Assembly (NCBI GenBank): GCA_003211275.1
Contig: QCTE01000012.1
Coordinates: 1-42,682, forward strand
Reading direction: 5' to 3'
DNA length: 42,682 bases
Origin: Synechococcus sp. AG-673-A03
GTDB taxonomy: Bacteria; Cyanobacteriota; Cyanobacteriia; PCC-6307; Cyanobiaceae
Part shown: positions 1 to 32,626 of the stretch, piece by piece
Layout: every line of letters begins with the position of its first letter
Position numbering within the stretch: the first letter of the stretch is position 1
Program-made: the position numbers and the translations under genes
Notes under the pieces: model-generated
The model's input: the letters and a program-made list of their open reading frames with translations, nothing else
What the model was told of the DNA's origin: nothing
Database searches by the model: none

Positions 1-119
1 AAGACGAAAGGCAAGCGATCAATACGATCTCGGATGCAAATGATTCACCAAACCGTCAAAACAGGATCACGAGATTGAGGCAAGAAGGCGCATCACCAGG
101 AAAGAATTAAATCTATCAT

Positions 120-437
120 TCAATAGGGACTAATTTCTTTAATGTCGTCATACAGCTGCTTGGCAAGCTTGTTGTTATATCCAGTGCATAACTCACGCAT
201 GCACAGAGCGTCAAAAATTGAAAACAAGGCTGGCAACAACGTCCAAAAAAAGACAAGGAATACGAAACCACTTTTGCGATCATTCAGCCAAAAGCGATGG
301 TAACCAAACCAGCCTAAAAGAAGAGCGTAAACAACTCCCAACGAAGGCTGCCGGCAACGAAGCTCAAACTCATTCTCAAAAACCATTTGCTCACCATGAG
401 ACATCTTCTTGGCAAGATGTTGATACTCTTTTCTCAT
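120..437 (-). CDS. TM2-domain small membrane protein
   Basis: This 105-residue protein matches the TM2 family layout: a first hydrophobic helix (about residues 33-50, containing LLGWFGYHRFWL), a short polar turn (NDRKSG), and a second helix (about 57-78) ending in FSIFDAL. The pattern of G-x-H-R-F just after the first helix and an Asp in the second is typical of TM2 proteins, whose function is generally unknown. The N-terminal 30 residues are polar and charged and probably cytoplasmic. It starts with ATG; no clear Shine-Dalgarno sequence is visible. No same-strand partner lies close by, so it is probably a single-gene unit. The family call is fairly secure, the role is not known. Confidence 0.7.
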   Translation of the reverse strand: MRKEYQHLAKKMSHGEQMVFENEFELRCRQPSLGVVYALLLGWFGYHRFWLNDRKSGFVFLVFFWTLLPALFSIFDALCMRELCTGYNNKLAKQLYDDIKEISPY

Positions 438-945
438 CTGCAGCGACTAGAAATATACTGTTGACAGACTAACAACAACGGAAGACAGGATCAAGCAACA
501 GGAAAATGGCCAACCAAATTAGTCTGATCAGACAGGAGGCCTCAAAAGACGGGGCTGTCACAGAAGACAGCTTTAATCTACAGAAAGCAGGCCAGCACTG
601 ATTTTTTTCAAACTTATAGTCGTCTTCAATCAACCAACATCTGAACTGATCAGGAAAGAAAGGAAATAGAAAGAATGAGATCACAGCACGTGGCCGTGAT
701 TAAAGTCAACCATATCCAAGAAAATCAGATTGATGCCACACTGTAGTAAATGTGGAAAATTGCCACCACTCGGGATAAAAAGGTTGTTTAAAGCGATCAT
801 GAGACTGCTTCAGAACCTATTTACATCAATGAAAATGTTGCTGAAAGCAATGAAGAAAGAATAGAGTCAATCAATCAAGCATCGCTTTATTTCCAAACAA
901 GAAATTGAGAAGGCAAGAACATAATTGAGAGAATAAAGCTAAGAC
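438..945. other. Gene-poor AT-rich gap
   Basis: About 500 bases lie between the TM2 gene and the next minus-strand gene without a convincing reading frame. A 71-codon frame on the minus strand (469-684) is rich in Phe and Cys and looks unlike a protein. Two small structures can be seen: a 6-bp hairpin with loop ACAGAA (554-571), followed on the plus strand by TTTAAT, and one copy of TGTGGAAAA (751-759), the complement of the cyanobacterial DnaA-box consensus TTTTCCACA. Neither is convincing as a functional site on its own. Confidence 0.4.
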
Positions 946-1434
946 TTAAGCAACAATCCAAGCATCTTCCTGGTCGTGCTTTTGAATTATTCCGGACAAA
1001 TTATCCTTCCAATGCTCATAAGCAACATCAAACTCACGGTCCCACAGAGGTGGGATGTCAATAACAGCTTTTTGGAAATAGCCATCCTCGATTGCACTTA
1101 AATAGAGCCTACGCAATGCAATCCATCTTGGTTCATTTTTATGAGACATCCTAAGCATAATGTCTTGAAACTCGCCATCAATATTCTCAGCCGGAATGCA
1201 ATAAAAATCCCCAACCCTACGCTTTGAACGCAAAAAATGGCCTTCTTCAAGAAGATGATTGACAACAGCGTTTTGGCCATCTTTTTGATCCAAGAGTTGG
1301 AATAATGTTCGTGCTCTCTTAAGACCTATTTGGTATCTTCTATTAGCAAGCCACTGAGTTATCGCCGTACGACGTGTAATTGCTATCAAAACAAGTACAA
1401 GCGCGATGAGCAATTCAATTTCAATAATCAGCAT
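946..1434 (-). CDS. Membrane-anchored protein of unknown function
   Basis: I do not recognise this 162-residue protein. It begins with a single hydrophobic helix (about residues 3-19) followed directly by Arg-rich sequence, so it should sit as a monotopic membrane protein with its soluble part in the cytoplasm. The remaining 140 residues are charged and look like a folded domain with several aromatic positions (for example PRWIALRRLYLSAIEDGYF around 105-123). It starts with ATG, and there is no good ribosome site. It reads away from feoA, leaving a 250-bp shared upstream region. The composition is normal for a real protein, so coding is likely although no function can be assigned. Confidence 0.55.
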   Translation of the reverse strand: MLIIEIELLIALVLVLIAITRRTAITQWLANRRYQIGLKRARTLFQLLDQKDGQNAVVNHLLEEGHFLRSKRRVGDFYCIPAENIDGEFQDIMLRMSHKNEPRWIALRRLYLSAIEDGYFQKAVIDIPPLWDREFDVAYEHWKDNLSGIIQKHDQEDAWIVA

Positions 1435-1684
1435 GATTACGAATATTCTTTTTAAAAACTAGCAGCGTTTCATAGTCCGACAAGCAACATCAATTACCTC
1501 GTATCATTTACTACCAACAATACATTCGCGGAAGCTTTTTACTCTTTTTATTTATGATTCCAAGGCCGATAGCTAAAGAGCGTAACAAATTCTACAGTGA
1601 TTGCGGTTTTAAGTCTTCTGTAATTGCCAGCCGATTCCTGTAGCTCTAGCCTTTTCAATAGAGACGCAATCGCACAGCTACGCA

Positions 1685-1945
1685 ATGGATTTAAGTGAAC
1701 TAGCAGTTCATCATTCAGCAACTGTCGTTGGTGTGAGCAGTGACGGTAGCGATCTGAGTAATTCCTTCAAGGATCGCTTGGAGGCAATGGGGATCAGGAG
1801 AGGGCGGACCGTGCAAGTCATGCGCAAAGCTCCTGGTGGAGATCCCTATGAGGTGAGAGTTGGCAGCACCACCGAGATTGCCATACGCAAGTCAGAAGCA
1901 GCTTTGGTGGAAATCACTGATGTAATTGATCTAAAGAAGTCATAA
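1685..1945 (+). CDS. feoA: Ferrous iron transport protein A
   Basis: FeoA is a small cytoplasmic protein with an SH3-like fold that supports FeoB-mediated Fe(II) uptake. The 86-residue product carries the family signature: RLEAMGIRRGRTVQVMRKAP near the middle, then the beta-rich segment YEVRVGSTTEIAIRKSEA ending in a hydrophobic strand. Its length fits the family (75-90 residues). It starts with ATG and is followed 43 bp later by feoB on the same strand, the usual feoAB order, so the two are very probably cotranscribed. I looked for a Fur-type operator in the 250-bp upstream region and saw no clear match. Confidence 0.9.
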   Translation: MDLSELAVHHSATVVGVSSDGSDLSNSFKDRLEAMGIRRGRTVQVMRKAPGGDPYEVRVGSTTEIAIRKSEAALVEITDVIDLKKS

Positions 1946-1988
1946 CAAGGACCGTTTGTTCCAGTTCAATCAGCTTTGAAACTCCATC

Positions 1989-3833
1989 ATGATCACTGCA
2001 GAAATCGGCAAGACAACGCAATCAAAAAACGAGTTGCCCAGGATCGTCTTTGTTGGTCAACCCAACACTGGCAAATCAACGTTTTTTAATCGCGTCACGA
2101 ACGCCACGGCTGGTGTAGCCAATTGGCCTGGCTTGACAGTTGATTTCATGCAGGCAAAGGTTGAACGTGATGGCAAAACAGTCGAGTTTGTTGATTTACC
2201 AGGAATCTACGATCTAGATGGATTCACAGAAGATGAAAAAGTTGTTCAAGACTTTCTAGAACAATACAGTTTTGATTTAATTGTCTGCGTAGTTAATGCT
2301 TCTCAGATTGATCGACAAATACTCCTACCTCTGCAGCTAAAAAAACTAGGAATACCTAGTTTGGTTGCATTAAATATGGCCGATGAAGTGAAGCGTTTTG
2401 GGGTGAAGATCAATACGCAGAAGTTATCTCAGTATCTTGAGATGCCTGTTTATACGATTAGTGCAAAATATGGTGCTGGTTGCAGTCTGGCAATAGACGG
2501 AATCTGGAAGACTGTTAACGACATTTCAGATTCTTATAAGGTGACAGAACTTGTTGAGTTCTGCAGAGAAAATAAGATTTCCGATGCTGAGATTCAAGAG
2601 TCTTTAGATCAAGGAATAGAAATGCCACCAGAGAACCTGGTGACCTTCACGAATCGGATGGATGCAGTGCTCTTGCACCCGATTTTCGGTTTGCCGATCT
2701 TTTTCCTGACCATGTTGGTCCTATTCCTATTCATATGGAATATCGGAATGCCAGCGCAGGATCCCGTCGGGGATTTCACTGATTGGTTACAAGCCACGGT
2801 CTTAGAGCCAGGGTTGAGCTTCCTCCCAGACATCGTCAAAGATTTCGTTATCAGTGGGCCATATACAGGTTTCGCTTCGTTGCTGGGTTTTGTACCACTT
2901 GTTGCCTTCTTCTTTGTGGTGATGACTGCTCTCGAAGATAGTGGTTATCTCTCTAGAGCTGCGTATCTGATGGATAACATCATGCGCAAGGCGGGGCTTG
3001 ACGGACGTGGCTTTGTCATGCAGCTGTTTGGATTCGGATGCAATGTTCCCGCAATCATGGGAACCAGAACAATTCGTTCACGTAGCCAACGATTATTGTC
3101 GATCCTTGTTATCCCATTCGCGTTGTGTTCAGCAAGACTACAAGTTTTTGTTTTCTTTCTAGGAATTATCCTTCCAAGCAACATGGGTGCTGTGGCCCTA
3201 TGGCTTCTTTATATCATTAGCTTCATCGTAGCTTTTATCATGGCAATGATATTCAATGCCAGCGGACAATTCAAATCAAAAGATCCATTTGTTATTGAAC
3301 TACCCCCTTACAGAACTCCTACATTCAAACAAGTTGCGCTGAATGTCTGGAGTGAAATGAAGACATTCGTGCAAAAATTATCGGTCTTCATGATTATTGG
3401 CACAACAATCACTTGGTTCCTTACGAATTATCCTGGTGGCTCTGAGGGATTGAATACATATGCAGGACAAATCGGAACCTTCTTCCAACCTTTGATGGCT
3501 CCTTTGGGCGTCAATCCACTACTGACAGTTTCACTCATTATTGGCTTCGTCGCCAAAGAGGTTCAGTTGGCTGCTGTTGCGACAATGTATGGAATGACTG
3601 AAGGAAGCGACGCACTCAAATCAACACTTGGAGGGGTCATCAACTTCCAACAAGGATTCAGTTATTGCCTGTTTAGTCTTCTCTACGTTCCATGTCTTAC
3701 AACGGTTGCCACGATCTGGGGTGAAACCAAGTCGGCTCGATTTACACTCTTTTCTGTTGCTGTATCAATGATCGTAGCCTGGGTTGTAGCTTTTGGTTTC
3801 TATCAAGGATATAATCTAATATTCACCTCCTGA
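1989..3833 (+). CDS. feoB: Ferrous iron transporter FeoB
   Basis: FeoB is the inner-membrane Fe(II) permease with an N-terminal G domain. Visible G motifs are the P-loop GQPNTGKST (residues 23-31), the switch segment GVANWPGLT (42-50), DLPG (69-72) and NMAD (129-132), with SAKYGAG as a plausible G5. After a helical linker the membrane part starts near residue 230 with repeated hydrophobic helices and the two Gate-type domains, including a segment around GRGFVMQLFGFGCNVPAIMG typical of the family. At 614 residues it is shorter than E. coli FeoB (773) but in the range of short bacterial forms. No feoC gene follows; instead the same frame continues past the stop as an interrupted Cys-rich reading frame. 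Confidence 0.93.
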   Translation: MITAEIGKTTQSKNELPRIVFVGQPNTGKSTFFNRVTNATAGVANWPGLTVDFMQAKVERDGKTVEFVDLPGIYDLDGFTEDEKVVQDFLEQYSFDLIVCVVNASQIDRQILLPLQLKKLGIPSLVALNMADEVKRFGVKINTQKLSQYLEMPVYTISAKYGAGCSLAIDGIWKTVNDISDSYKVTELVEFCRENKISDAEIQESLDQGIEMPPENLVTFTNRMDAVLLHPIFGLPIFFLTMLVLFLFIWNIGMPAQDPVGDFTDWLQATVLEPGLSFLPDIVKDFVISGPYTGFASLLGFVPLVAFFFVVMTALEDSGYLSRAAYLMDNIMRKAGLDGRGFVMQLFGFGCNVPAIMGTRTIRSRSQRLLSILVIPFALCSARLQVFVFFLGIILPSNMGAVALWLLYIISFIVAFIMAMIFNASGQFKSKDPFVIELPPYRTPTFKQVALNVWSEMKTFVQKLSVFMIIGTTITWFLTNYPGGSEGLNTYAGQIGTFFQPLMAPLGVNPLLTVSLIIGFVAKEVQLAAVATMYGMTEGSDALKSTLGGVINFQQGFSYCLFSLLYVPCLTTVATIWGETKSARFTLFSVAVSMIVAWVVAFGFYQGYNLIFTS

Positions 3834-4096
3834 AATCAAAGAAGCAGTCAGCCTGATTGCGTTTGCATGGTCTGCTATGAGGCTTAATCGGTTGTTGACA
3901 AATTTAAAATAAATGAACTGCCTCAATGGCCGGATCAAGAAGCAAGTGCATGTATTTCTTGCATCAAACAAGAGGGCATAATTAGCACTGAGATGCAATC
4001 AACGCAATCAATCCTTCACTAAAAATAGACAACCCATGACAGTCGATTAAACTAGTCTTTTTAATGACTTACCGGCAATCAACATATCAGCTTGAA

Positions 4097-4789
4097 TCAT
4101 GCAGCTCTCTGTTCCAATGGTGTGAAATCCCAACCGATTGGAGTTAATGGGCTTGTTGTTTCCCGATGAACCTTGTAAAGCTCTTCGATCTCAAGACACG
4201 CTTTGTCGTAAGCAGACCAGCCCTTCATACGCCTTGAATGTGCCCGACCTCTTTGATCAACAGACTGATCCACGGTGACACCGTTTGTTTCGGCGCTCTC
4301 AAATGCACTTAAAAGGGGAATTTGAGACTGCAATACATGAATATCAAAACCTTCGAGGATTTCAACGGCTGAATCTGCTGAGGACCGTTTGCGTGAATCG
4401 ACCTTAACTAATAAAGCGGCGTAAGGAATACGGTAATTGTTTAATAATGTCGACATTTCAACCGTCAACTCTAGTGAGCGACTCTGAGGTGTTGTCGGAA
4501 GCACGATAATATCCGAGCCTTCAACAAGGTTTTTAAGTTCTTCTTCGTTGCTACTTGCCTGACCATCGGTCACAACGATGTCAGCACCTCTTGCGACTTT
4601 GGCAGCTGCTTCAATCGGAATGACTGGATAAGGGAGCAATTCTCGTGCTCCATAAGCAGTGGCCGAACGATTCCTATCCGCGTCAATCAAGGCAACTTTT
4701 TTGTGTTGATGAGCCCAGATAGCAGCTAGATGAACACTCGTACATGTTTTTGCAACACCTCCTTTCTGGCCGAAAACAGTGATAAACAT
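4097..4789 (-). CDS. ParA/Soj-type ATPase (solitary)
   Basis: The protein has the deviant Walker A box KGGVAKTCTS at its N-terminus, the A' motif LIDAD near residue 38, and a Walker-B-like DIVVTDGQ, followed by LPTTPQS, all features of the ParA/MinD family that position DNA or cell structures through ATP-dependent dimerisation. It is about 230 residues long. I chose the ATG at 4789 (MFITVFGQKGG); a TTG four codons upstream is possible but adds nothing conserved. No parB gene or obvious centromere-like repeats are visible near it, so it is not a complete partition system within this window. It may be an orphan, a plasmid-derived remnant, or a McdA-like positioning ATPase. Confidence 0.8.
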   Translation of the reverse strand: MFITVFGQKGGVAKTCTSVHLAAIWAHQHKKVALIDADRNRSATAYGARELLPYPVIPIEAAAKVARGADIVVTDGQASSNEEELKNLVEGSDIIVLPTTPQSRSLELTVEMSTLLNNYRIPYAALLVKVDSRKRSSADSAVEILEGFDIHVLQSQIPLLSAFESAETNGVTVDQSVDQRGRAHSRRMKGWSAYDKACLEIEELYKVHRETTSPLTPIGWDFTPLEQRAA

Positions 4790-5096
4790 TGTTTTGAACA
4801 ATTTTTTTTATCATTGCGTCAACAAGCAAATTGTCAAGGGCTTTTAAACTCCATGTCATGGCATGGCGGGTTTTTGGCTACGAATCGGACGCTCCTGTGA
4901 GTTCGCAGGGCAACATGCATCAAGGGTCCGATCAACACACAACAAAAACTGGCTCGACACAGACATCAAATTGATCGCAACAGAATCGCAACGGTTTCCT
5001 GAAGCCGATTTCTTGTCGTCCTCTTGGGCTCCCCACTTCTACGCCATTGATGGGGAAACCTGTTTTAGCAACCATTGGACTTTGCTCATCATCAAT
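4790..5096. other. Non-coding gap upstream of parA
   Basis: About 300 bases lie between the parA start and the terminator of the candidate small RNA. A plus-strand frame spanning 4863-5180 has no family resemblance and runs through the terminator, so I do not count it as a gene. One feature stands out: a 7-bp perfect inverted repeat (ATCGGAC at 4884-4890 with GTCCGAT at 4926-4932) enclosing a smaller 4-bp hairpin (4894-4909). This could be a structured leader for parA on the minus strand, but chance is a fair alternative. Confidence 0.35.
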
Positions 5097-5126
5097 AAAA
5101 AACGGAGCGGTATCCCTATCGCCCCG
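5097..5126 (-). terminator. Intrinsic terminator of the candidate small RNA
   Basis: On the minus strand CGGGGCGATA (5126-5117) pairs with TACCGCTCCG (5112-5103) over a GGGA loop. The stem has one G-U pair and one A-C mismatch and is followed directly by six T residues. The T run is on the minus strand only, so it ends a minus-strand transcript. No recognisable minus-strand protein gene ends just before it. Confidence 0.75.
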
Positions 5127-5160
5127 TCAGAGAAGAGTGCCTGGGGCAAGGACTCCAGAC
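5097..5160 (-). ncRNA. Candidate small RNA with CU-rich linker
   Basis: Read on the minus strand, this 64-nt segment has the layout of a compact bacterial regulatory RNA. A 5' hairpin pairs GTCTGG (5160-5155) with CCAGGC (5144-5139) over a 10-nt loop. A 12-nt pyrimidine-rich linker, ACTCTTCTCTGA (5138-5127), should be single-stranded. A 10-bp terminator hairpin with a T run follows. A -10-like GATAAT (5172-5167) lies six bases before the first G of the 5' hairpin, so the predicted start coincides with the base of the structure. No good -35 was seen. The layout resembles cyanobacterial Yfr1 (two hairpins flanking an unpaired element), but the linker is not the Yfr1 core ACUCCUCACAC. No open frame is plausible here. 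Confidence 0.55.
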
Positions 5161-5166
5161 TGAGTC

Positions 5167-5172
5167 ATTATC
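5167..5172 (-). promoter_or_regulatory. -10-like element of the candidate small RNA
   Basis: GATAAT on the minus strand differs from TATAAT at one position and sits six bases before the predicted first base of the small RNA (5160). The region 16-19 bases further upstream lacks a TTGACA-like hexamer, which is common in cyanobacterial promoters. The assignment depends on the neighbouring RNA being real. Confidence 0.4.
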
Positions 5173-5387
5173 CCGAATGAGAAGGATCGACTGTGGCTCG
5201 ATTGATTGAAAGATGAGAATTCAGCCATGAGGCCCATGCCATACGAGGTCGGGAAACAGCGATGCCATGCACACGGACGACTTCAGTGTTCAAATCCAGT
5301 GGAAGGAACCTGAGGATGATCAAACAATCACAGCTGAATGAATGAAATCGCACGTGATGATCACTGCTTCTGACCAGATTGTTCTCC

Positions 5388-5528
5388 ATGAACGAAAATT
5401 CCAACGAAACTCTTCCTCAACAGGAGGAGGGCGAAAGCTTTAGAGCCTGGCTCAAGCGCAACCGTCTTGATAAAGGCCAGCCGTGGTTGTTCTACGGCGA
5501 AGATGAATTATTTGAAGATGTCATCTGA
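5388..5528 (+). CDS. Small acidic protein of unknown function
   Basis: This 46-codon frame encodes a compact acidic protein with a Glu-rich start (LPQQEEGESF), a basic helix (RAWLKRNRLDKG) and an aromatic-acidic end (PWLFYGEDELFEDVI). The mix of charged and aromatic residues and a clean ATG-to-TGA frame look more like a real small protein than a random frame. No ribosome-binding sequence is obvious before the ATG. It lies between the candidate small RNA and the next unknown gene, with no partner on its strand. I cannot assign a family; the size suggests a small regulatory or accessory protein. Coding is only moderately likely. Confidence 0.45.
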   Translation: MNENSNETLPQQEEGESFRAWLKRNRLDKGQPWLFYGEDELFEDVI

Positions 5529-5731
5529 ACATTTGAATCATTATGCAGAGATGAAAGACTGAAAAAAAAGCTATTAATAAATACGACTTGGCATTCAAAA
5601 TTGTAATTTTCCTTACTCAATCAATTCACTGCATCACTCACTTAAAACAAATAATTCGGATTCAACAGTGCTTTCACTCAGAAAGGGTTGAATTAATAAT
5701 TGTATTGAAAACTGTTGATGTTGATCAGCTT

Positions 5732-6073
5732 CTAAGCGACTTGATGTTCGGAAGACCTGATCTGACGCACAAGTCTTGGCGCCGAAGTGTCCACATTCGT
5801 CTCCAACAACCAATGATCAAGATCAATGGTTTGAATCATCTCAAAAATTTCATTCACTGAGGCCAAATCCTGTTGCATAAATTCCATAACCACTCTAATT
5901 TTTGAATAAACCTCAAGCTCTGACTCACAAAAATAGCGAACAGGTCCTTGAACGCCCCGGCTGACATATTGATTAAGGAATCGTTCGAGACTATCTTTCT
6001 CATATCCGTCGACGATCGAACTCTTGAGTTCGATGCAACGTATGGTGAAATAGCTCACTGTTGTATCAGGCAT
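5732..6073 (-). CDS. Hypothetical protein
   Basis: I do not recognise this 113-residue protein. It has no membrane helix or signal peptide. It contains a plausible alpha/beta composition with a segment LERFLNQYVSRGVQGPVRYF followed by a helical region EVYSKIRVVMEFMQQDLASVNEIFEMI, and ends in a basic tail. Codon and residue composition favour this frame over the overlapping plus-strand frames (5588-5860 and 5948-6154), which lack coherent composition. The ATG at 6073 follows an A/T-rich stretch without a Shine-Dalgarno sequence. It is isolated, in the AT-rich left part of the window, and may be a strain-specific accessory gene. Confidence 0.5.
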   Translation of the reverse strand: MPDTTVSYFTIRCIELKSSIVDGYEKDSLERFLNQYVSRGVQGPVRYFCESELEVYSKIRVVMEFMQQDLASVNEIFEMIQTIDLDHWLLETNVDTSAPRLVRQIRSSEHQVA

Positions 6074-6470
6074 CTATTTAAAAAAAATTTGAACCACGCT
6101 AGTGGTTTCAATTCTGACTCTGCGAATAACCAGATACACAAGCAAAGCTCTTAAGGCACTCTGGACAAATCATGACCAAGCCAACAAAACACAATTTTCA
6201 CTCAAATGAAGGCCTTGCCTGCAGGGCCAAGTGCAATTCAAACCCCATAATTGCTATTACTTAAGAGATGAATTCACTTTAATTACCACTTAATCGAAGA
6301 AATTATTCAGTGGGTTTGAGCTTTTAGCGACTTGAAGCAGGGAGACCAATGACATGGGTTCAACGGCAGTTTCACTGATTTTTCATTCACTGATTTTTCA
6401 TTCACCGACTTTTCCGTAAATTCATCTTAAAAGGCTTCGGTATTCTGGCAATGCTTCAACATAATTCCGA
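6074..6470. other. Non-coding gap with a short tandem repeat
   Basis: Almost 400 bases separate the hypothetical gene from ppk2. No reading frame longer than about 30 codons is persuasive. The only ordered element is a three-unit 15-bp tandem repeat at 6371-6415. There is no GC-rich hairpin with a T run that would serve as terminator for ppk2. Confidence 0.4.
6371..6415. repeat. 15-bp tandem repeat, three units
   Basis: Two identical copies of TTCACTGATTTTTCA (6371-6385 and 6386-6400) are followed by a third copy with three substitutions (6401-6415). It lies in non-coding sequence about 55 bp past the ppk2 stop codon. It looks like a local slippage duplication; a role is not evident. Confidence 0.8.
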
Positions 6471-7418
6471 TCAATAGGGATAACCATTGGGAACAAAGAA
6501 CTGTTCGTTGATGGGAGGGCGCGCATAGTCACCCTTTTTGGGCCTGGGAGGAAGCTTGATCCCTGGAGGTGTCATATCTTCCCAAGGCACCTTGCTGAGA
6601 ATGTGGCGAAGACAATTTAGTCGCGCTCTTCGTTTGTCATCCGCTTCAACAGTGAACCAGGGAGCCTCTGGAATATTGGTTCGCGTGAACATTTCATCCT
6701 TAGCCTTAGAAAAATCAACCCAACGATTGCGTGCCTCAAGATCCATCGGACTCAGCTTCCAACGGCGTGTGGGGTCATCGATACGCGACTGAAAACGTGC
6801 CTCCTGCTCAGTGTCGCTGACTGAAAACCAATACTTGAGAACAAGAATGCCACTGCGCACCAGCATCCGTTCAAATTGAGGAGCATCATCAAGAAACTGT
6901 TCAACTTGTTCAGGGCTGCAGAACCCCATGACCCGCTCAACACCCGCTCGGTTGTACCAGCTTCGATCGAACACAACAATCTCGCCAGCAGCCGGGAAAT
7001 GTTCGACATAGCGCTGGAAATACCACTGGCTTTTCTGGCGCTCTGTTGGCGTTCCCAGTGCCACAACCCTGCAACCTCTTGGATTCAAGGGTTCGGTCAA
7101 TCGTTTGATCGTGCCCCCTTTGCCAGCAGCATCACGCCCTTCAAACAGAACGATCATCCGATAGCCAGTTTCACGAATCCAGTACTGCATCCTGACCAGA
7201 TCAGTCTGGAGGCGGATCAATTCAGCCTCATAGAGCTTCTTATTCAGCCTCACAATCTTGGTCTGATGATCATCCATGAGACCCTCGGACCGCTCAGATG
7301 GAGTGTCAACGTCCTGAGCCCTGGCCCCAAGGCTTTCCAATGCCATGGCAGAGACGCGGCCTAAACGGGCTTTGACCTTGGCTTGATCGTGTTTTTTTGC
7401 CTTGCCCTTGTTGCCCAT
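6471..7418 (-). CDS. ppk2: Polyphosphate kinase 2
   Basis: PPK2 enzymes transfer phosphate between polyphosphate and nucleotides, usually in the direction of making NTP or NDP. The 315-residue protein shows the Walker A box GRDAAGKGG (94-102), the following TIKRLTEPLNPRG, the Walker B segment VVFDRSWYNR (148-157), and the arginine-rich lid with RIDDPTRRWKLS. It is a single-domain form, and the first 50 residues are a Lys- and Arg-rich extension that is not conserved in the family. The ATG at 7418 is the first Met. It lies 75 bp downstream of the sensor kinase gene on the same strand, so it could be the third gene of that operon, linking phosphate or energy storage to the two-component system. 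Confidence 0.9.
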   Translation of the reverse strand: MGNKGKAKKHDQAKVKARLGRVSAMALESLGARAQDVDTPSERSEGLMDDHQTKIVRLNKKLYEAELIRLQTDLVRMQYWIRETGYRMIVLFEGRDAAGKGGTIKRLTEPLNPRGCRVVALGTPTERQKSQWYFQRYVEHFPAAGEIVVFDRSWYNRAGVERVMGFCSPEQVEQFLDDAPQFERMLVRSGILVLKYWFSVSDTEQEARFQSRIDDPTRRWKLSPMDLEARNRWVDFSKAKDEMFTRTNIPEAPWFTVEADDKRRARLNCLRHILSKVPWEDMTPPGIKLPPRPKKGDYARPPINEQFFVPNGYPY

Positions 7419-7493
7419 ATTCGGAACAGATCCGCTCCTATTGGAGGCATCGGATATGCACAGCTCAACATCTGCTCCAGTTTTTCTCAGATT

Positions 7494-8837
7494 TCAGTTC
7501 GTCAGGGATCTGGCCTGGGCAGCCAATAACGGCAGGCTGAAGCGGATCGCAAACCTGCCTGGATCAGGCCCTAAATCGACCTCGTCTCGATGGAGGCACT
7601 CCAACCGGCCGCCGTGGAGACGCGCGACATGGGAAACGATGGCCAGCCCTAAACCGCAGTGCCCCTGCTGGCCGCGGGATGAATCAAGACGATGAAAGGG
7701 TTGCAGAGCCTCGTCCCATTGCTGAGCAGGCATTCCTTTGCCTTGATCCCAGACCTCGATGCAGCAGCGCGAATTATCGACATGCAGTCGAAGAATGACC
7801 GGAGCAACTCCGTAGGAAAAGGCATTGTCGATGAGGTTGGCAATTGCGCGACCAAGGGCGACAGGTTTGACCGAAACAGAGAGAGGAGCCAGGTCGAGAC
7901 GCAATTGATCGGCCGGATGACTACTAGCTACCTCAGCCAGCAATTGATCCAAGGGGACTTGCACCGAGGTTTCACTGTCACCACCGCCGGCAAACAGCAA
8001 AAACTGCCCCGTAATTCTCTCAAGAGACTGAAGGTCTCCAGCACACCGCTCCCGTTCATCCGCTGAAAGCTGCGGCATGGAAAGACGGAACTGAAGACGG
8101 GTGATCGGTGCTCTCAGATCATGGGCGATGCCGGCAAGCATCGTCGCGCGTTCTCGACGATTGGCAGCCAGCCTCTGCACCATGGCGTTGAAACGCTGGG
8201 TGAGGCGCTGGACCTCAGGAGCTCCTCGGGCAGTGACCGCATCAGGGTCCTCACCATCACCGACGCGGGAGAGCGCTTTTTCCAGACCGCGCAAAGGTGC
8301 CTCCACCTCCACAAGCAGAAACAATCCGCCGCAGATAATGCCTGCTCCCACCAAGGCAAGCCCAAGCAGTGTGGGTTCAGGAGGCCATCGCATCATCGAG
8401 GGCACGTCCACACGCAACCAGATGGGCTCCAGAGGAGAAATCAATTCGATCCAAACACTGCGTTCACCGCGGGCAGCCCGGTCGGGCAACACCATTGGAC
8501 AGTGGGAGAGTCGTTGACAAAGCTGCAGCTGCAACGCCTCCGCCTGTCGTTTAAAAGCCGCTGACGGTGGCAGCGGGGCGGGTTTAGGACGGACCGTGAC
8601 CTCAAGATCAAGGCCGCTCAGTTCCGCAACCAGATGAGGGGGGTAACGCTCAAGAGCCAGCTCAGTGAGCCTCACGTTCAGAGCAAGATCTCTCCCAAGC
8701 TGAATGGTCTGCAACTGCTCCAGCTGGCGCCCGAAGAGAGCCTGGAAAACCACCAGGCAAAATGCCGAACTACCAAGGGCCAGTCCTCCCCAACCCAGCA
8801 AAGCAGTGAGACGCTTCTGCCAAAGTCGTGAAGGCAT
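7494..8837 (-). CDS. EnvZ-type sensor histidine kinase
   Basis: This is a classic membrane sensor kinase of about 447 residues. It has a first membrane helix (11-33), an extracytoplasmic loop of about 120 residues, a second helix (155-177), a HAMP segment, then the phosphoacceptor box AGIAHDLRAPITRL with His239. The ATP-binding domain shows an N box (NLIDNA, about 334-339), G1 (DQGKGMP, 364-370) and G2 (GHCGLGLAIV, about 392-401). I take the ATG at 8837; a TTG two codons earlier is the alternative. It starts 23 bp after the response regulator gene and should phosphorylate it. The stimulus is not evident from the loop sequence. Confidence 0.9.
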   Translation of the reverse strand: MPSRLWQKRLTALLGWGGLALGSSAFCLVVFQALFGRQLEQLQTIQLGRDLALNVRLTELALERYPPHLVAELSGLDLEVTVRPKPAPLPPSAAFKRQAEALQLQLCQRLSHCPMVLPDRAARGERSVWIELISPLEPIWLRVDVPSMMRWPPEPTLLGLALVGAGIICGGLFLLVEVEAPLRGLEKALSRVGDGEDPDAVTARGAPEVQRLTQRFNAMVQRLAANRRERATMLAGIAHDLRAPITRLQFRLSMPQLSADERERCAGDLQSLERITGQFLLFAGGGDSETSVQVPLDQLLAEVASSHPADQLRLDLAPLSVSVKPVALGRAIANLIDNAFSYGVAPVILRLHVDNSRCCIEVWDQGKGMPAQQWDEALQPFHRLDSSRGQQGHCGLGLAIVSHVARLHGGRLECLHRDEVDLGPDPGRFAIRFSLPLLAAQARSLTN

Positions 8838-8860
8838 CGGCAACAGTCGTGAGGGAGAGA

Positions 8861-9631
8861 TCAGCGGGATCTTGGTTCGCCATCTGGGACGAATACATAG
8901 CCATAACCCCAGACGGTCTGCAGATAACGCGGGCGGGTTGGATCCGGCTCCACCAGTTTGCGCACTCGTGAGACCTGAACATCCATGCTGCGGCTGTCGG
9001 TGTCACAGCCAGGCCCACGGGCTAGCTCAATCAACCGCTCGCGCGACAAAGGGCGATGCGGATGCTGAACGAAGGACGCCAACAGGCTGAACTCCCCACT
9101 GGTGATCACGACAGGCTTGCCTTCACGGGTGAGCGTGCGGGCAGCCAGATCCAGCACGTTGTCGCCAAAGACCACATCACCCCCTTCAGCTAGAGGTGTG
9201 CCTGCAGGCAGTGCACTGCGCCGTCTCAACACCGCTTCAATCCGAGCTGAAAGCTCACGGGGCAGAAAAGGCTTGGCCAGGTAATCATCAGCCCCCTGCT
9301 CCAGACCGATGATGCGATCCACGCCTTCTCCACGGGCCGTCAGCATCACCACCGGCAGGTCATCGCCTGCATCCCTGAGACGACGGAGTGCAGTCAGACC
9401 ATCATCACCGGGCATCATCAGGTCGAGCACGATCAGATCAGGTCGCTGAAATTCGAGACGGGCCTCAAGCTGCTTCACATCGCTGAGACTGCGCACGTCA
9501 TACCCCTGATCAAGCAGATAGGTGCCGACCATCTGGCGCAAATCAGGATCATCATCGACTACCCAGATCATCGAAGTGCGGGGCATGGGTTCTGTCGCTG
9601 CTTCAAGTTGCACTGATCGTATGGATGTCAT
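8861..9631 (-). CDS. OmpR-family response regulator
   Basis: The receiver domain contains the acidic pair after WVVDD (about 26-27), the phosphoacceptor Asp70 in LIVLDLMMPGDDG, Thr98 in VMLTARG and Lys120 in LAKPFLPREL. The C-terminal half is a winged-helix DNA-binding domain ending in YLQTVWGYGYVFVPDG, the usual OmpR/PhoB signature. I choose the ATG at 9631, which has AGGA seven bases upstream; an in-frame ATG at 9586 lies closer to the conserved domain, and an upstream ATG at 9685 is less likely because it extends further into the divergent gene region. Sensor and regulator form an operon, regulator first. Target genes are unknown. Confidence 0.9.
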   Translation of the reverse strand: MTSIRSVQLEAATEPMPRTSMIWVVDDDPDLRQMVGTYLLDQGYDVRSLSDVKQLEARLEFQRPDLIVLDLMMPGDDGLTALRRLRDAGDDLPVVMLTARGEGVDRIIGLEQGADDYLAKPFLPRELSARIEAVLRRRSALPAGTPLAEGGDVVFGDNVLDLAARTLTREGKPVVITSGEFSLLASFVQHPHRPLSRERLIELARGPGCDTDSRSMDVQVSRVRKLVEPDPTRPRYLQTVWGYGYVFVPDGEPRSR

Positions 9632-9729
9632 TGCGTCCTGTCGCGCTGAAACGGACCTTGTCACAGCTGATCGATGATCTGTCACGACTCAGACATGTCC
9701 ATGTCGCCGAATCTCCATATGCTCAATGG

Positions 9730-10194
9730 ATGGCGAAGCGCTTGACACAACCGGTGTTGATGGCCTTTGTGCTGGTTGGGATGCAAAGTCTTGTCCCTTT
9801 CGACTCGGTTCTGGCGAGCCCGCGTCATGTGCAGATCTATGGCCGACGCATGGAGGCACTGTTCATCCGCATGGATGTGAACGGTGACGGTCGTCTGGAA
9901 TCAGGAGAAGTCAGGGGTCGGCCCTATTTCGAACGGCGTCTGCAACGACCCGACTCGCGTGGCTATCTGCTGCTGAAAGATCTCAGACCCTTAAGCCCTC
10001 ACCCGAGTGGTCAGCGTCTGCAAAAACGTTTCAATCAAGCCGATCGCAATGGTGATGGTCGGATCGACCGTCATGAATGCCAATCACTGCCCTGGTTGAG
10101 CCGGAATTTTGTGAGCTTCGATCTTGACGCCGATGGTGGACTGACGCTTGAAGAACTGTGGACGGTGCAGCGTTCACTCGCTCCTCGCCACTGA
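9730..10194 (+). CDS. Secreted EF-hand calcium-binding protein
   Basis: The 154-residue product has a signal peptide (basic MAKR, hydrophobic core to about residue 29, cleavage near VLAS) and three canonical calcium-binding loops: DVNGDGRLESGE (49-60), DRNGDGRIDRHE (105-116) and DLDADGGLTLEE (131-142). Each has the expected acidic residues at positions 1, 3, 5 and 12 or close substitutes. It should fold outside the cytoplasm and bind Ca2+ or a similar ion. An ATG at 9625 would add 35 residues before the signal peptide, so I prefer the ATG at 9730. It reads away from the response regulator gene, with about 100 bp between the chosen starts, which suggests possible control by that system. Confidence 0.8.
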   Translation: MAKRLTQPVLMAFVLVGMQSLVPFDSVLASPRHVQIYGRRMEALFIRMDVNGDGRLESGEVRGRPYFERRLQRPDSRGYLLLKDLRPLSPHPSGQRLQKRFNQADRNGDGRIDRHECQSLPWLSRNFVSFDLDADGGLTLEELWTVQRSLAPRH

Positions 10195-10196
10195 CG

Positions 10197-10610
10197 TCAA
10201 CGCCGAGGTCTGGATCGACCATGAATCGTCTGACTCGGCTTGAGACGCTTAGATCTGATCAACCGTGTGAAGGATTTAATCAGGCGGAATACTCCTGACA
10301 CCAAGGCCAAAAGGCCTGCGAGAAGCAACATTGCAATCAGGATGACCGCGGCCAGACCGAGCAGTGCTTCCAGGAGCTGTCCAAGACCTCGAATCAGATC
10401 AGCAATGGCCTCACTCACCACCACCATGGCGTCGACCTTCTGAGGCAACCAGCTCAGGAATGCGAGCAACCCTGTGCCAAGGGCCAACAACAGAAGCCCC
10501 TCAAGCATCTGACGGCCGACTGAAACAGCCCTGGACCTGTGCCGCTTGCTGAATACTCTCCGAGTCTTGGGCACAGCACTAAGAGGTCTCAGATTGGGGG
10601 AATTGATCAC
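10197..10610 (-). CDS. Small membrane protein of unknown function
   Basis: The 137-residue protein has a basic N-terminus of about 33 residues, a hydrophobic helix (about 36-54), an amphipathic segment (QKVDAMVVVSEAIADLIRGLGQLLEAL), a second hydrophobic stretch (about 82-108) and a basic tail. Both ends therefore lie on the cytoplasmic side. It starts with GTG, supported by a strong AGGAGG four bases upstream. It converges with the EF-hand gene, only two bases between the two stop codons. No family is recognised. The middle segment resembles small pore- or channel-associated proteins only in composition, so no function is assigned. Confidence 0.65.
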   Translation of the reverse strand: MINSPNLRPLSAVPKTRRVFSKRHRSRAVSVGRQMLEGLLLLALGTGLLAFLSWLPQKVDAMVVVSEAIADLIRGLGQLLEALLGLAAVILIAMLLLAGLLALVSGVFRLIKSFTRLIRSKRLKPSQTIHGRSRPRR

Positions 10611-10779
10611 ACCGCCTCCTGAACGAACTCCTGAGCGAAGCCAGTGATCGGACAGCGGCGCTGCAAGCTGATCAAAAAGCAGAAAGATGCTGACGGCAAG
10701 AACTCAGCAATCCGAACAACAGAACTCTTGAGGTTGGACGGAATCTCTGCCATTCGAATCGTGAGGCAATCGCGTCATT

Positions 10780-10797
10780 CTGAGCCGCCTGGCTCAG
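10780..10797 (-). terminator. Hairpin after the DUF4335 gene
   Basis: A perfect 7-bp stem, CTGAGCC with GGCTCAG around a 4-base loop, lies directly after the stop codon of the minus-strand DUF4335 gene. There is no T run behind it, so it may be a processing or stability hairpin instead of a true intrinsic terminator. The rest of the gap (10611-10800) shows no gene. Confidence 0.35.
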
Positions 10798-10800
10798 AGG

Positions 10801-11442
10801 TCAACGCTCTTGATCAGGTTGTGCAGGATCGCTGATCGGAGTTTCTGTCTTGACCTCGGGAGCCTGTGCAGGCGTGGGAGATTGAACCTCAGGCAATGGC
10901 AACAGAAGCCCCAAGACGCCCAAGACCACAACCGTGGCACCTCCAAGCAGGGGAGCTGTCAGCCTCTGCGTCAACGGGATCCGCTCAACAAGATCCCGAC
11001 GAGGAAGAGGTTCATGCTGAATCGATGGCCAGGCAAGACAGACACGGCCGTCGCTTCGCAAGGCATCAAGACAACGAACGAGATCGGCCAACTGAGCATC
11101 ATCAAGCTGGATCGACAGAGGCGGAATACCTGGCTGGCCACTGGTGAGGTCAAGACGATGCTGAGACCCATCGGGAACCAGCCGAACCGGATCGTTCTGC
11201 TCACCCAGGGAACGAACCACCCCTGAAAGGCGCAGGCGCACATAGGGAATCACCACCTGCATTAATGCTTCGAGATGCTCACGCTTGCCCTCCAGCTCGG
11301 AGGCGCCGACGATTTGCAAACGCCAGCTTGAGAGAATTCCGATGGCCTGCTCTGCATGACCAGCTGAAAAGTCCGGCAAGCCTTCAACTTCCAGGCGAGC
11401 GGTGGTTTGGTCGTAGCGGTAGGACTGTTTGAGCATCAACAT
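10801..11442 (-). CDS. DUF4335 domain protein
   Basis: The 213-residue product matches the cyanobacterial DUF4335 family: an N-terminal soluble domain beginning LKQSYRYDQTTARLEVEGLPD with beta-strand pattern, then a basic linker, one membrane helix (about 163-182) and a Pro-rich tail after it. The function is unknown. It starts with ATG three bases before its upstream neighbour's stop ends: the DUF3038 stop TGA is directly followed by this ATG, so the two genes are cotranscribed and probably translationally coupled. This DUF3038-DUF4335 pairing is one I associate with cyanobacteria generally, which suggests that the two proteins act together. Confidence 0.8.
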   Translation of the reverse strand: MLMLKQSYRYDQTTARLEVEGLPDFSAGHAEQAIGILSSWRLQIVGASELEGKREHLEALMQVVIPYVRLRLSGVVRSLGEQNDPVRLVPDGSQHRLDLTSGQPGIPPLSIQLDDAQLADLVRCLDALRSDGRVCLAWPSIQHEPLPRRDLVERIPLTQRLTAPLLGGATVVVLGVLGLLLPLPEVQSPTPAQAPEVKTETPISDPAQPDQER

Positions 11443-12000
11443 TCAGGGGGTCGGATCAAGAAGACTGGCGCGGAGACGATCCACCCCACCGGGTCCAGCA
11501 GCCAGGGCCAGTGTTAACACCAGCTGTCGCTGCAGCGGGCCTTCGGGCTCACTGCCGAGAAAACGCTGAATGGCGCCACGCCGAAGATTCATGCGCTCTT
11601 CAATCAGATCGCGCAAGCGCTGGTGGACCAGCTGCCAGCGCTGACGAGTGAGGTCCTGGGGCTCTTTACTGGACAGCAACTGGTGAAGCATGGGATAGAG
11701 CCTGTCTGCCATCACGCAGAGGATCCTGATCAAGGCCTCAGTTTCCACGGCACTGAGTTGACCACGACGTGTGGAACGCCTGAGCGGGTTATGGCAGCGA
11801 CGTTTCCAAAGCTCAACGCGATTGGGAAAGATCGTTTCAAAACCAAGCTGACGGGTCGCCCAGAGCATGGCCTCCCCACCGTTCAGGTCAAGAGATTCAA
11901 CAGTGAGCAGAAGCAGATCAAGGCGCTCGAGAGCACGGCGGCCAAGAACCGCTTCAGGAATCGACGGATCTGGAGCCGCCTCAGCAGTGACATCGGTCAT
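11443..12000 (-). CDS. DUF3038 domain protein
   Basis: This 185-residue, all-helical soluble protein matches the cyanobacterial DUF3038 family, with the segment [29 protein letters not shown] (given in part: [14 protein letters not shown]) near residues 40-53 and the helical core [18 protein letters not shown]. No catalytic motif is visible. Its ATG at 12000 overlaps the first possible ATG of apt on the other strand (11999-12001), so the two genes share a very short divergent promoter region or their promoters lie inside each other's coding sequence. It is the first gene of a two-gene operon with DUF4335. Confidence 0.8.

Positions 12001-32549: not shown

Positions 32550-32626
<77 letters not shown>

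Follow-up and report, generated by a model that had tools for sequence, protein, structure and literature searches.

The locus at positions 5097-5172 of the window raised the question of whether a small RNA is encoded on its minus strand and, if so, through which part such an RNA would act. The window, which is the whole stretch of 42,682 nucleotides that was analysed, comes from a Synechococcus genome of 1.87 Mb in 93 contigs (70% complete). An earlier note on the same DNA had proposed a novel small RNA of Yfr1-like architecture, with an unpaired CU-rich linker as its working part. All the elements it had named, namely GATAAT, a six-base gap, a 5′ hairpin, a 12-nt linker and a terminator with six T, were located on the minus strand at the positions it had given, and they fitted one 64-nt transcript whose minimum-energy fold comprised both hairpins and left the linker unpaired (Table 1). 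Moreover, two conserved elements absent from that note were found, the CCACAG box and a TTCG preceding GATAAT, the latter being invariant in the alignment of all five orthologues described below.

Table 1. Positions of the putative RNA gene, of its parts and of the neighbouring frames in the window.
Feature	Positions	Strand	Remarks
CCACAG box, candidate −35 region	5196-5191	minus	18 nt before GATAAT; in 4/5 orthologues
GATAAT, candidate −10 box	5172-5167	minus	Invariant in 5/5 orthologues
Gap GACTCA, −10 box to transcript start	5166-5161	minus	Mean pairwise identity 0.23 among the five orthologues
Predicted small RNA, 64 nt	5160-5097	minus	5′ end placed from the −10 box and the first conserved G
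5′ hairpin GUCUGGAGUCCUUGCCCCAGGC, 22 nt	5160-5139	minus	Six outer pairs; loop CCUU within invariant UCCUUG
Unpaired CU-rich linker ACTCTTCTCTGA, 12 nt	5138-5127	minus	Drifts among orthologues
Terminator stem-loop, core CGAUAGGGAUACCG	5126-5103	minus	GNRA-type loop GGGA, A-C mismatch
T tail of terminator, six T	5102-5097	minus	At least five T in 5/5 orthologues
46-aa frame MNENSNETLPQQEEGESFRAWLKRNRLDKGQPWLFYGEDELFEDVI	5388-5528	plus	Also in six related loci, 68-87% identity; no Pfam family
113-aa protein	5732-6073	minus	No Pfam match; in 7/31 genus genomes
ParA-like ATPase	4097-4789	minus	Conserved TTGACA..AATGAT promoter-like site

The 64-nt transcript folded at −24.1 kcal/mol, and 10 out of 200 shuffles folded equally well (z −1.89), so that the folding of this single sequence was only mildly unusual and constitutes weak evidence. 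Neither the promoter nor the terminator of the element was listed by a simple scan of positions 1-12000. It was because of its conservation across genomes, and not of single-sequence folding, that the element was raised above chance. In a BLAST search with 101 bases, 9 of 60 genomes, including its own, presented a match at E ≤ 0.01, four of them in the terminator part only. At E ≤ 1e-4, most of the element was recovered in 5 of the 31 genomes of the genus, its own included, and in 3 of the 24 that were at least 90% complete. These five orthologues, found in its own genome (G000), G001, G016, G022 and G024, were used for the comparison.

Mean pairwise identity among the five orthologues was 0.86 in the CCACAG region and 0.54 in the spacer, the hexamer itself being present in four of them and reading CCACGG in the fifth. 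The identity of the six bases after GATAAT was as low as expected of a promoter discriminator (Table 1). Within the transcript, the 5′ hairpin (0.89) and the terminator (0.96) were highly conserved, and the linker was the least conserved part, with a mean of 0.52, a lowest value of 0.23 and a length of 11-13 nt. Such a pattern fits a promoter with a structured transcript directly after it. Furthermore, the four neighbouring genes had DNA identities of 79.6-92.4% across the five genomes, and the intergenic stretch aligned only in islands, corresponding to the 46-aa frame, to the RNA together with the boxes of its putative promoter, and to the promoter-like site ahead of the ParA-like gene. The best of these began at the CCACAG box and ended with the T run, and had poorly aligning flanks. 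The earlier note had named loss of stem pairing and linker in related strains as grounds for refutation; the pairing was kept in the relatives and the linker was lost. The comparison corrects the guess as to the functional part of the RNA, the CU-rich linker not being supported in that role by its identities compared with those of the hairpin and the terminator.

The five carriers had a common gene order, consisting of a response regulator, a histidine kinase, PPK2, the 113-aa gene, the RNA and the ParA-like gene. The 46-aa frame lay on the opposite strand between the 113-aa gene and the RNA, and FeoB (split into two frames in G016) and FeoA were found beyond the ParA-like gene. Between the RNA and the ParA-like gene there were 190-355 nt of poorly conserved sequence in the orthologue loci and, as the latter has its own conserved promoter-like site downstream, there is no need to regard the RNA as its leader. 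In G010 and G015 the locus with the 113-aa gene was present and the RNA was not found, so the RNA, lacking in these two sister genomes, is dispensable. A four-gene tree grouped G010 with G015, the own genome with G001, and G016 plus G024 with G022, with bootstrap supports of 100 each; the simplest history would be that of an ancestral RNA lost once, unless the root lies on the G010/G015 branch. An open frame on the plus strand at 4863-5180 was considered probably spurious and dropped, because only pieces of 21-28 residues matched in six related loci, in four of which these pieces overlay the RNA itself.

Relatives of the element were searched for in 400 genomes drawn from the larger family, using strict filters in both covariance searches, so that weak relatives may escape. 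The covariance model including the promoter had matches in 17 of the 400 genomes, and the model of the transcript alone in 21, the four extra genomes (G002, G007, G010 and G011) being added by weak or partial matches; in both cases the matches were restricted to 2 of 59 genera. Many sites of the second genus had a CCAC box, and at most of its sites the terminator core was preceded by a 5′ hairpin and a linker. For the analysis of covariation, 10 of 22 sites were taken, namely all five orthologues and 5 of the 17 others, picked for distinct hairpins; since these sequences were chosen, the resulting counts lean towards structure. In these 10 sequences, 94.7% of the cells paired (38.8-55.0% in slid versions), and none of 500 shuffles reached this pairing or the covariation score. 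Changes on both sides were found in 6 of 17 pairs, a number reached by 17 of 500 shuffles, and 15 further pair types were counted, reached by 72 of 500. In particular, the 5′ hairpin had two-sided changes in four of its eight pairs with 88.8% of cells paired, and the terminator in two pairs. No pair had changed on both sides among the five orthologues alone, and thus the covariation depends on the second genus being homologous. The strongest link to that genus was site L027, where the 5′ hairpin contains TGGTGTCCTTGCCCCAGGC as it does in G001 and G022. It was also the one further relative in which the loop UCCUUG was kept, the others having UCGUCC, CAUU and similar loops (comparison in a 22-nt frame, which L037 and L038, kept in the counts, fitted badly). 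A second, diverged member was also observed in G001 (L041, L045; G001:C1:561596-561715), with a changed outer terminator stem and the core kept.

Overall, the comparison of genomes shows a conserved putative gene with its predicted hairpins, its candidate −10 box and a shared position. The proposal of a small RNA gene was upheld by the site common to five genomes, by the box and hairpins kept there and by compensatory changes with respect to the second genus, and the gene is very probably real. The family is not found in the RNA library searched (Rfam 15): at gathering scores, no family was reported at 5097-5172, and the whole window gave a tRNA at 32550-32623 only. The closest entry was sroB, also called ChiX or MicM. 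The match to its model (RF00368) was full-length and weak, with 28.6 bits and an E-value of 0.075 for 351 bases, and was best in the linker end and the terminator. Identity with sroB was rejected, as the score fell below the gathering cut-off of 44 and the family was unlisted at E ≤ 10 for the four other orthologues. Another RNA compared, by its description only, was the abundant picocyanobacterial Yfr103, which is likewise multi-copy in marine Synechococcus, as the relatives in the second genus may be; its paralogues span 290-328 nt according to the available part of the source (PMC5069720). In the available parts of the literature on marine Synechococcus small RNAs (e.g. PMC2190773, PMC5069720, PMC6778093 and PMC7368042), with most subscription papers and supplementary tables outside the scope of the search, the present RNA was not described.

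As to how the RNA would act, we infer its start site, expression, pairing and targets as follows. A sigma-70-type promoter, with GATAAT and with CCACAG in the −35 region, would drive transcription of the minus strand from near 5160, and the transcript would end at the terminator (5103-5097) as a non-coding RNA of approximately 62-65 nt with two hairpins, most likely acting in trans. The 5′ loop UCCUUG would pair with Shine-Dalgarno-like AAGGA stretches of target mRNAs and block their translation, and the 3′ hairpin with its invariant core would provide termination, protection of the RNA and possibly a grip for a protein. Taken as a whole, a free-standing trans-acting RNA gene working with its 5′ loop and 3′ hairpin is the best explanation, at close to an even chance of being right. 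The loop and the terminator core CGAUAGGGAUACCG were the parts of the RNA that were both invariant and exposed. The loop CCUU was predicted to be unpaired with values of 0.89-0.96 in the own genome, G024 and G016, and the 5′ loop with merely 0.31-0.40 in G001 and G022, where an alternative fold competes. A precedent counted in favour of pairing by the 5′ loop is Yfr10, which also presents UCCU in a loop borne on a stem, and whose target binding was lost when UCCU was changed. However, as far as its description is available (PMC6778093), Yfr10 carries the whole Yfr1 motif in that loop, whereas UCCU stands alone here and is also a plain anti-Shine-Dalgarno stretch. Because the loop was mostly closed in G001 and G022, confidence in it as the pairing part was lowered slightly, and the assignment is a tentative one, rather doubtful in its own right.

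The targets predicted by this mechanism were searched for in the 31 genomes with a Shine-Dalgarno-like pattern (GGCAAGGA shortly before ATG), and no consistent excess was found in the carriers. The numbers of matches were 9 in G000, 28 in G001, 19 in G016, 10 in G022 and 23 in G024, compared with 4-23 in the 26 non-carriers. The places of the matches were taken from among the matches listed for G001 and G016, the own genome, G022 and G024 being compared by counts. Ten of these stretches (four G001/G016 pairs and two more from G016) were inspected and revealed no clear target: the site lay inside a long open frame in L141-L144, matched a window site within a 134-aa frame in L139/L140, and preceded frames of 13, 108, 32 and 112 codons in L137, L138, L145 and L146, respectively. 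In the window, GGCAAGGA appeared at four sites, one of which was the complement of the RNA itself, and 31 of 100 shuffles reached that number.

A rather unlikely alternative, which weighs most among the others, assigns the work to the 3′ hairpin: its core CGAUAGGGAUACCG would be bound by a protein or by a second RNA, and the 5′ hairpin and the linker would be packing. The RNA would then act as a sponge or scaffold common to a family whose 5′ parts can be exchanged. It is consistent with the core staying while the outer stem, the linker and the 5′ hairpin change, and with the distribution of the core. A total of 31 sites with CGATAGGGATACCG were found in the 400 genomes, 29 of them in the two genera and 2 elsewhere, and the reversed core used as a control gave 14 sites, none of them in the two genera. 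After leaving out one site without a locus, 28 of the 29 were read: a run of at least five T followed within 20 bases at 21 of them and was missing at 7, so termination alone may not explain every core. Against this alternative, a GGGA loop with U-A and A-U as its closing pairs is simply a good terminator tip, and a similar one is present in the enterobacterial sroB model. The conservation of the terminator might reflect only the need to terminate, which also counts against the best explanation given above.

The motif CCAC[AG][GT] appeared within 120 nt upstream of 18 of the 28 core sites, downstream of none and in 11% of random windows, and GATAAT was not found within 120 nt upstream of 23 of the 28, that is, of all but the orthologues. 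Since relatives that lack GATAAT thus also have a CCAC box upstream, the role of this box may go beyond that of a promoter part, and the CCACAG box, besides being a candidate −35 element, may be an old component of the family. Some core sites sat in otherwise different surroundings. Cores without a long T run in a different setting were observed at G010:C1:2247012 and 2630242, G002:C57:1589 and G015:C53:17164, in genomes where the RNA gene was not found. Searches for the terminator pattern in a named genome collection returned eight contigs, all from Synechococcus, and no matches in viral contigs; a distant BLAST search of phage records likewise gave no match to the element.

The competing fold mentioned above raises the possibility of a switch, in which a strand of the 5′ hairpin would pair with the 5′ arm and loop of the terminator, either as an antiterminator that allows transcription to continue in the direction of the ParA-like gene or as an alternative conformation of the free RNA. 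This alternative fold, involving the 5′ hairpin and the terminator arm, was found in all five orthologues at 0.6-6.3 kcal/mol above the two-hairpin fold, with 1 to 40 of 500 shuffles of the 5′ hairpin doing equally well, although rows that are invariant are not independent tests. The competition was strong in G001 and G022, where both loops were unpaired at 0.3-0.5 only. Cross-pairing was further scored at 16 other sites (15 of the second genus and one more in G001, leaving out L029, whose hairpin is as in L028), and it was clear at L027 alone, where 12 of 300 shuffles were as good, compared with 63 of 300 at the next best site. A switch was ranked low and is considered quite improbable, because L027 alone was clear and the downstream gene, beyond a poorly conserved stretch, has its own promoter-like site.

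Still less probable is a relic or selfish repeat, meaning that the locus captured one unit from a multi-copy element and that this unit has no function of its own. Some second-genus genomes did contain related units at two or more sites, and the presence of the element in its own genus was patchy, but a site shared by five genomes whose neighbours are 80-92% identical over DNA, with hairpins at 0.89 and 0.96 and GATAAT invariant, argues against it.

Lastly, the likeness to Yfr1 put forward in the earlier note was borne out in part. In the available parts of its description (PMC2190773), Yfr1 is an RNA of 54-69 nt with two stem-loops, an unpaired section of 16-20 nt between them and a U-tailed terminator; it carries the ultraconserved unpaired ACUCCUCACAC, appears in nearly all cyanobacteria and is frequently, not universally, adjacent to guaB or trxA. 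The present RNA resembles it in size, in its 5′ hairpin, in the open pyrimidine-rich linker between two hairpins and in the terminator with a U tail. In contrast, going by the same parts of that source (PMC2190773), its linker is shorter in the five orthologues and not conserved, its loops are conserved and those of Yfr1 are not, it is found in two genera of one family, and its neighbours are the 113-aa and ParA-like genes. The linker was also correctly said to differ from the Yfr1 core, since the undecamer ACUCCUCACAC had no match at 5097-5172 with up to 3 mismatches allowed; exact copies were found elsewhere in all 31 genus genomes, with six in the own genome, any match being counted, whether yfr1 or other. 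The reading of a Yfr1-type RNA that works by means of its linker is therefore, in spite of the shared layout and size (PMC2190773, available parts), highly improbable, and membership in Yfr1 was rejected: the undecamer is missing, the linker is not conserved and the neighbours are others.

Returning to a free-standing trans-acting gene, it is possible, if on balance doubtful, that the RNA is one member of a modular family in two Synechococcus-type genera, in which a constant 3′ hairpin (CGAUAGGGAUACCG) would be recognised by a partner and exchangeable 5′ hairpins and linkers would direct each copy to targets of its own, the units of the second genus standing in terminator-rich RNA arrays and the present one being a compact gene with its own promoter. 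If this were true, direct capture of an RNA-binding partner would become feasible in bacteria that are abundant in the ocean. With its orthologues, a covariance model and an invariant 3′ module, the compact RNA gene also adds a concrete and testable entry to the small RNAs described for marine picocyanobacteria.

Finally, terminator-rich and apparently non-coding arrays were observed in 17 of 300 family genomes, 14 belonging to the second genus and 3 to the own genus. An example is L050:5868-7317, with similar arrays in L049 and L051-L059 and pieces in G001, G008 and G023. Their layout comprised conserved approximately 235 bases ending in the terminator core, followed at varying distance by approximately 660 bases in which several units of a hairpin and a T run were seen by eye. 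These arrays may be runs of small RNA genes, and none of their units was listed by Rfam. Furthermore, tRNA genes were present near the array element in L049, L051, L055 and L058, and a Cyano-2 RNA in L053.
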